The position numbers and the translations under genes were made by a program. From Syntrophomonadaceae bacterium (GTDB lineage: Bacteria > Bacillota > Dethiobacteria > DTU022 > UBA8154), in contig PWRZ01000152.1 of the NCBI GenBank assembly GCA_003563385.1, positions 1-35,300 of the forward strand: DNA of 35,300 nt, given 5' to 3'. Position 1 is the first letter of the stretch; the number at the start of each line of letters is the position of its first letter. Below are positions 1,937 through 30,803 of the stretch, one piece after another. Below the pieces are notes generated by a model. The model made no database searches, was not told where the DNA came from, and saw only the letters and a list, made by a program, of their open reading frames with translations.

Positions 1937-1982
1937 GTTCGGAGAACTCAAAATTTTTGCAAAAAAGTTTTTATAAAAAGTA

Positions 1983-2011
1983 TTGACAAAACCGCCCTCC
2001 GGTGAGATAAT
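1983..2011 (+). promoter_or_regulatory. Sigma-A type promoter of candidate ncRNA
   Basis: TTGACA (1983-1988), 17-bp spacer, GATAAT (2006-2011); predicted TSS about 2017-2019. Confidence 0.75.
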
Positions 2012-2017
2012 GTGTTC

Positions 2018-2258
2018 AGCACAAGTCTCGAGAGGCACGGAAAGTTAGTCCTTCAGTTGTATTCCGTAAATGCCGGGCGGTTCCCGAGCGGAGGAAGGCA
2101 GGTGAACTTCCAAAGCGAGGGAAAAGGTACCGGCAAGCCGGGAGCAACTGGGCAGGTGGAACCGCAAGAAATACTGCGGAAAGCCTGCTCCGGTAAACAA
2201 ACCGGGAGGAAAAACTGGAAGGTTTGTTGGGACTTGTGCATTTTATTTATTTTTTATC
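2018..2258 (+). ncRNA. Candidate structured non-coding RNA, family not assigned
   Basis: Starts at the predicted TSS; closing stem GCACAAGTC (2019-2027) with GACTTGTGC (2231-2239), extendable to 13 bp with G:U; hairpin GGCACGGA (2034-2041) with TCCG/TGCC (2063-2066, 2071-2074); GCGGTTCC (2077-2084) with GGAACCGC (2158-2165); alternative hairpin CCGCA/TGCGG (2162-2179); followed by ATTTTATTTATTTTTTAT. No credible CDS. Confidence 0.65.
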
Positions 2259-24313: not shown

Positions 24314-24627
24314 CAAAAAAAGCTTCCATCCCTGCAGGGACGGAAGCTCCAGCTTCTCGCGGTACCACCCTAATTGAGCCTCAGCCCGAGGCCCCTCTCT
24401 TTAAGAAGGCACTGACCGGTTTTCCGGTCCGATACCCCCTCCCTTTTAACAGCGGGAGCTCCTGTCAAAGCCTACTGGCCCGCTTTAATAAAAGCGCGCT
24501 TTCGGTTTGCTTCTCCGGGGTGTATTTGGCCGGCTGAGGACACCGGGTTTCAGCAACCCCCGGCTCTCTGCAGTCCTTACAGACCGGTTACTCATCCCCT
24601 TCATAGACTTTACCCTCTTACCTGTTA
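24314..24627 (-). promoter_or_regulatory. T-box leader (probable tyrosine specifier UAC) upstream of aroF-tyrA-aroA
   Basis: T-box sequence AGGGTGGTACCGCG (minus; 24371-24358); terminator GAGCTTCCGTCCC-TGCA-GGGATGGAAGCTTTTTTT (24348-24315); AGTA loop-E motif (GGGGATGAGTAACCGG) opposite CCGGCCAAATACACCCC, placing UAC (24524-24522) in the specifier loop. Confidence 0.92.
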
Positions 24628-30546: not shown

Positions 30547-30577
30547 AACAGCCCACGCAAACCCTCAACTGCCCTTA

Positions 30578-30762
30578 GTGAGATAGCGCTCCACCGGGAA
30601 ACAGGGCCTTTTACCCGGTGACAGTCCGGCAGTTATTCACTGACAGACCAGCTATTGGCCGTGGGTAGGTCCAAAAGCTTCGGCGGCAGCACCTTTCAGC
30701 CCGCTTCATGGGGTTCCCGTTCTCAGCGGGCATACTTATTGCCATCCGCACCTCTACCCCAC
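30578..30762 (-). promoter_or_regulatory. Lysine riboswitch (L-box) controlling lysA
   Basis: Minus strand GTGGGGTAGAGGTGCGGATGGCAATAAGTA...AAAGGTGCTGCCGCCGAAGC...GCTGGTCTGTCAG...GACTGTCACCGGG...GGAGCGCTATCTCAC; P1 pairs GTGGGGTAG with CTATCTCAC. Confidence 0.93.
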
Positions 30763-30803
30763 CTCAGGTTTAGAGATGAGGTATTGATTCAATTTTAGAA
30801 GGT

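Follow-up and report, generated by a model that had tools for sequence, protein, structure and literature searches.

In the window (the whole 35,300-nt stretch of DNA analysed here), an RNA gene occupies the gap between an amidase ORF ending at 1863 on the forward strand and dtd (2800-2342) on the reverse strand. Its features are listed in Table 1. A promoter scan of the region gave a single 11/12 match on the forward strand, compared to an average of 0.3 promoter-like sites in the shuffled region, and 7 nt separate the -10 box from the closing helix, P1. The segment GCACAAGTC (2019-2027) is complementary to GACTTGTGC (2231-2239), with ATTTTATTTATTTTTT coming next. A preliminary description of this interval had proposed a TTGACA-N17-GATAAT promoter and transcript ends that coincide with the closing stem; the coordinates were verified, and promoter and stem ends coincide in nearly all related copies. 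Judging from these signals, the transcript would start at about 2018 and end at 2245-2258, giving a predicted length of ~220-240 bases.

Table 1. Coordinates of the promoter and RNA features in the window
Feature	Positions	Strand	Basis
A/T-rich stretch 5' of the -35 box, UP-element-like	1948-1982	+	Kept in the second genomic copy (C43)
-35 box TTGACA	1983-1988	+	Sequence scan; TTGACA in 84/91 copies (partly a selection criterion)
-10 box GATAAT after a TG, 17-nt spacer	2006-2011	+	Sequence scan
Structured RNA, both ends of the closing helix included	2019-2239	+	Fold, 84% identical copy, family
P1 5' arm GCACAAGTCTCGA	2019-2031	+	Partner 2227-2239; P1 pairing kept in 91 copies
5' G of the G.G mismatch, partner G2226	2032	+	G.G in 90/91 copies
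Upper P1 (2033-2036/2222-2225), purine internal loop, P2 5' arm (2043-2046/2213-2216)	2033-2046	+	Fold, family P1 table
P3 5' arm, partner 2206-2210, closing the three-arm junction	2049-2053	+	Fold
Arm A, long interrupted helix	2054-2150	+	Fold; in the second copy kept mostly by single-side changes
Arm B hairpin	2151-2189	+	Fold; the second copy carries a 12-nt insertion
Arm C hairpin	2190-2205	+	Fold
3' family-signature sequence AACTGGAAGGTTTG	2213-2226	+	Pattern search with RRCYGGAARGTYTGTTGGRRCY
P1 3' arm TTGGGACTTGTGC	2227-2239	+	Fold, family P1 table
U-rich tail, presumed termination region	2240-2258	+	Sequence; relatives also U-rich, mean 6.5 T per 10

The region 2018-2258 folds at -107.1 kcal/mol versus -70.8 +/- 4.5 kcal/mol for dinucleotide shuffles (z = -8.06; 0/200). 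The closing helix P1 has 13 pairs (2019-2031/2227-2239), followed by the G2032.G2226 mismatch and another 4 pairs. Enclosed by it are a loop of purines, then two short stems and finally the three arms; the preliminary description had drawn several internal helices. The 84-aa ORF at 2012-2266, in which the preliminary description saw no family features, is a chance frame: it is not conserved as coding sequence, the majority of indels in related copies having lengths not divisible by three. Upstream, at 1895-1948, TGACTCAGGGGACGGTTCTC occurs in tandem copies 3' of the amidase gene, with a terminator-like hairpin at the end.

A DNA search identified another copy elsewhere in the window genome (G000:C43:2377-2682, here C43), with 84% identity across promoter and RNA. 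The two copies align from about 1948, and most relatives are also A/T-rich before the -35 box. A third copy lies at L072:4415-4703. In relatives giving weak DNA matches, the conserved portion consists of the ends, 5' GGTYCCGAGAGRC..GAARG and 3' GAAGGYYTGTTGGRRCC. With two mismatches, the 3'-end pattern RRCYGGAARGTYTGTTGGRRCY matched 48 sites among 71 genomes of the order versus 6 for the reversed control. For an exact 16-mer, 98 genomes of the class yielded 92 sites, and its reverse none. About 90 complete copies were gathered, and 91 were entered in the P1 and promoter tables. The family is spread over the GTDB class of the window genome and four families beyond it, as seen in genomes that are mostly incomplete MAGs and, beyond the class, in a sample. 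DNA-search matches at L003, L005, L006 and L007 were rejected as short chance matches, promoter or coding sequence. The lone 1-mismatch pattern matches beyond the class (L131, L132, L139 and L140) are not relatives either.

The relatives, about 150-410 nt long, all have a promoter in front and a U-rich tail behind, and in common between these are P1 carrying the G.G mismatch, inner loops rich in purines and a number of arms. One family of the class carries several paralogous types per genome, namely type I, of about 315 nt, type II, which is about 292 nt long and has an AATAAT-type -10 box, and type III. Tandem paralogs were observed ahead of hpt2, an HPRT paralog described below, in f6 genomes (L120 637-894 and 983-1241; L121 on the reverse strand), with a similar arrangement at L135 and L137. 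Close to an intact copy, at a distance of ~1 kb, a solitary RNA 3' end without the 5' arm (L089/L115, G038:C72) represents a truncated copy.

The 25 type I/III sequences share 81 pairs, with 93.8% of the cells paired. In this best-sampled set, changes on both sides of a pair are seen at 40/81 pairs versus 23.0 +/- 2.6 after shuffling (0/500 shuffles). When the alignment partners are slid, pairing drops to 26-51%, a one-column slide leaving 46-51%. For the two types, both-side changes were counted at 44/81 and 45/82 pairs, the latter being type II with RIBOSUM scoring. RNAalifold, run independently under its default scoring, returned 66 pairs for type I/III, 32 of them with both-side changes, and a run for type II returned 56 pairs, with both-side changes at 26. 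The arms of types I/III and II are supported by compensatory changes. For the window copy itself, the fold draws on its thermodynamics and on a single close paralog, and covariation is scarce: compared to C43, 66 pairs are the same, 7 have a one-side change with pairing kept, 3 are broken and none shows a both-side change, with substitutions at 11/152 paired and 12/69 unpaired positions.

P1 is paired at most positions in 91/91 or 90/91 copies, with GC/AT/CG exchanges, a table which is partly circular because P1 pairing served to find the copies. The G.G mismatch in its CGA-G-A / U-G-UUG context is present in the window and in 90/91 copies, the search motif having favoured this context. Concerning the promoter, the spacer is 17 nt in 86/91 copies, and P1 starts 6-9 nt past the -10 box in 84/91. 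An unbiased version of the promoter and P1 test is given by the 68 places found with the 3' 16-mer alone: here, a promoter lies directly 5' of a complementary arm in 61 (2 in shuffles), and a CCGAGAG-like motif is present in 59 (0 in shuffles). Based on promoter and ends, the RNA is very probably an independent transcript.

A cmscan of the window region against Rfam 15, relaxed to E = 10, gave no meaningful match, the only Rfam matches in the window being a T-box and a lysine riboswitch at other positions, and nothing matched at 24 family loci, including loci beyond the class, at E = 1. This also holds specifically for the raiA motif, OLE, ROOL and GOLLD models at the same thresholds; the 6S and raiA models were those to which the preliminary description had drawn particular attention. 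No description of the RNA or of the F0 fusion presented below was found in the literature, searched with open-access coverage and few subscription journals or bioRxiv-only preprints. The preliminary description had suggested a discrete structured RNA of a possibly unannotated family and had named in advance a lack of conservation and of compensatory changes as grounds for abandoning this idea. With empty Rfam results, conservation throughout the class and more widely, and abundant compensatory changes in relatives, the locus almost certainly belongs to a real structured RNA family that was previously uncatalogued. The earlier observation was right and too modest; it included neither the sister copies nor the link to a kinase-nuclease-like gene.

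The ancestral locus has the order RNA, hpt2 and then a gene designated F0, and this arrangement is vertically conserved across five of the families that make up the class. The hpt2 gene (e.g., L008 1794-2336, reverse strand) encodes an HPRT paralog distinct from the housekeeping hpt and occurs in only part of the class, hpt being present in nearly all genomes. F0 (e.g., L008 2348-3274, reverse strand) encodes a Cytidylate_kin2 kinase fused to a T7-endonuclease-I-like domain. Its N-terminus is the cytidylate-kinase-like Cytidylate_kin2 domain, and the C-terminal 100 residues form the better conserved half. A profile comparison relates this C-terminus to T7 endonuclease I (E = 3.7e-4 to PDB 3cae), and 4/19 F0 members show a Phage_endo_I match; no Pfam family reaches its gathering score in the C-terminus. 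Since the full-length model is poor (pLDDT 60), only the AlphaFold model of the C-terminal domain (pLDDT 91.7) was used. Its best matches are PD-(D/E)XK nucleases such as Bax1, I-Bth0305I and PspGI, along with mitoribosomal proteins, all with modest scores. F0 shares the PD...E motif and the PD-(D/E)XK-type fold with T7 endonuclease I (PF05367), a remote similarity, but differs in the fused kinase and in having a threonine where the phage enzyme has its usual catalytic lysine. T7 endonuclease I binds four-way junctions.

Among genomes that are at least 90% complete, 37 have the RNA and F0, none has F0 only, two have the RNA only (G036 and G053) and 24 have neither. A uniform 16-mer test of the same genomes gave 33 with both, 4 with F0 only, 2 with RNA only and 24 with neither (p = 3e-11, uncorrected for phylogeny); only this test is unbiased, because the RNA was searched more closely near F0 loci. 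The RNA without a detected F0 was seen in the two nearly complete genomes mentioned and in five incomplete ones. F0 is a better correlate of the RNA than hpt2, since one genome without hpt2 (G097) keeps F0 and RNA adjacent. Genera of mixed content (g2, g4 and g38) suggest that RNA and F0 were jointly lost more than once.

In a 150-genome sample of the phylum, full-length F0 is present in a few distant families. At 8/10 of the loci examined beyond the class, an RNA with matching 5' signature lies at most 1.5 kb from F0. One F0 locus (G176, L236) has no adjoining RNA. The f18 RNAs beyond the class are 333 nt long and retain the G.G mismatch. Those of f38 are 150 nt long, with an A.A mismatch in P1 and both-side changes at 12/48 pairs, and at L232 and L233 two such 150-nt RNAs flank F0. 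Many paralogs, including the window copy, are distant from F0. Ancestral linkage, with the locus lost as a block, could explain why RNA and F0 occur together, yet unlinked paralogs vanish too.

As the RNA nearly always occurs with F0, an RNA-protein machine is suggested. The favoured explanation, with a probability of roughly 0.6, is a new family of trans-acting RNAs, probably forming part of a ribonucleoprotein (RNP) with F0. According to this model, a strong sigma-70-type promoter would start the RNA on the first base of P1, and the closed, multi-armed body would end just past P1 in the U-rich tract. P1, the G.G mismatch and the flanking purine loops are the identity element of the family, the arms differing by paralog type. 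F0 is the likely partner and, its C-terminal relative being a binder of four-way junctions, might recognise P1 or the arm junction. Towards F0, the RNA could act as a scaffold, an inhibitor or a substrate for processing and might thereby affect its activity. From the genomic data, a functional partnership between RNA and F0 is slightly favoured over its absence. Because no near-complete genome of the class has F0 without the RNA, while the RNA sometimes occurs without F0, a dependence of F0 on the RNA is mildly favoured. More tentatively, a previously unknown Bacillota RNP system might combine the multi-armed RNAs, in up to several paralogs per cell, with the kinase/PD-(D/E)XK fusion and often the HPRT paralog. 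If true, a domain resembling junction resolvases would have come to work on an RNA junction, either binding it, processing it or being restrained by it, and the system would possibly sense the nucleotide state.

The alternative that survives best, albeit unlikely, is a scaffold or homo-oligomer made of RNA only, in the manner of OLE, ROOL and GOLLD, with the proximity to F0 and hpt2 being inherited synteny and not function. A fold this complex and conserved, with its several arms and its loops rich in purines, would suit such a role, paralogs are remote from F0, and large ornate RNAs are known to assemble into RNA-only complexes (PMC12286853). Against it stand the disappearance of unlinked paralogs where F0 is lost and the recurrence of F0-RNA adjacency beyond the class. 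More doubtful still is an RNA that inhibits the nuclease-like part of F0 as an antitoxin would, akin to the RNAs of type III toxin-antitoxin systems, with extra copies providing dosage. The nuclease-like fold speaks for such a pair, as does, at 90% completeness or more, the restriction of F0 to genomes bearing the RNA, which itself can occur without F0. Nevertheless, the chromosomal locus is vertically conserved, the active-site lysine is replaced and F0 also contains a kinase domain. The tandem-repeat RNA beside a ToxN-family endoribonuclease that marks type III systems was not found: the RNA shows no ToxI-kind repeat array, and neither Pfam nor PADLOC assigned F0 to a ToxN family. A defence system was rejected, PADLOC giving only weak and partial matches, as was a viral origin, one exact pattern having 0 matches in viral contigs.

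A cis element, i.e. an attenuator, riboswitch-like leader or antisense regulator of a neighbour, is very improbable. Intergenic gaps are short, and type II copies lie co-directional and 5' of proC or NADH-dehydrogenase genes, but the RNA has a promoter to itself, with constant spacing to P1, and a U tract directly after P1; the ancestral locus places it convergent with hpt2, the window with dtd, and the neighbours vary among paralogs. A MITE-like mobile or repeat element with a promoter and no functional RNA would account for several copies per genome, yet it has a negligible chance given the compensatory evolution across deep divergence and the fixed syntenic sites, target duplications not having been noticed. 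Partial copies near repeated DNA do occur in G093, where two type I-like 3' halves lie ~1.5 kb apart with identical unrelated upstream sequence on each (L126, G093:C1:2919400-2925400); it looks as though the RNA had been captured or interrupted by a repeat or mobile element.

The size and the Bacillota host would fit a diverged 6S, Y RNA, tmRNA, raiA or OLE, a reading with hardly any probability left in view of the empty Rfam searches and the following comparisons. With 6S RNA (RF00013), the family shares a long terminal helix as closure and its own promoter. The preliminary description had judged the layout unlike that of rod-shaped 6S, and both the minimum free energy structure and the covariation agree on a multi-arm fold instead of a rod with one central bubble. 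No RF00013 match was found in the window or its relatives, and true 6S sits at a separate locus in 87/98 genomes (G000:C157 in the window genome), which led to rejection of a 6S replacement. A tmRNA, which had not been recognised earlier either, was rejected as ARAGORN was negative at the six loci tested. The CCGA...UUGG helix prompted a comparison with Ro-bound Y RNA, which likewise has a terminal helix with a conserved irregularity close to CCGA, but this identity was rejected. In Y RNA the irregularity is a bulged C, in contrast to the G.G mismatch here, and the Ro protein (TROVE) is present in one genome of the class only and missing from 97/98.

The raiA motif RNA (RF03072) is also an independent structured RNA of ~200 nt from Bacillota with a poorly known function, but differs in sequence and covariance model, ends, neighbours and P1 signature. 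Loss of raiA has been reported to affect sporulation (cited in PMC12286853). By analogy, a link to sporulation was considered and rejected: Spo0A, which does not track the new RNA, is missing from the genomes richest in it and present in many that have none. OLE RNA is similarly large and ornate and found in extremophilic anaerobes, and an RNP with dedicated proteins would be a common trait; the new RNA is shorter, lacks an OLE match and has other protein neighbours (hpt2 and the kinase/PD-(D/E)XK fusion). ROOL and GOLLD resemble it in their elaborate multi-arm folds of unknown function, but are longer and tied to phage or prophage (PMC12286853), whereas the new RNA is chromosomal.

Deeply conserved large bacterial RNAs of unknown function are few (OLE, raiA, ROOL and GOLLD), most of them without an identified partner. 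The new family could also connect a T7-endonuclease-I-like domain with a cellular RNA. Its function is directly testable because of the clear identity element, the covariation, the paralogs and the strong genomic pointer to one protein. Elsewhere in the window, a T-box leader (24333-24613) and a lysine riboswitch (30576-30764), both on the reverse strand, score above the Rfam gathering threshold.
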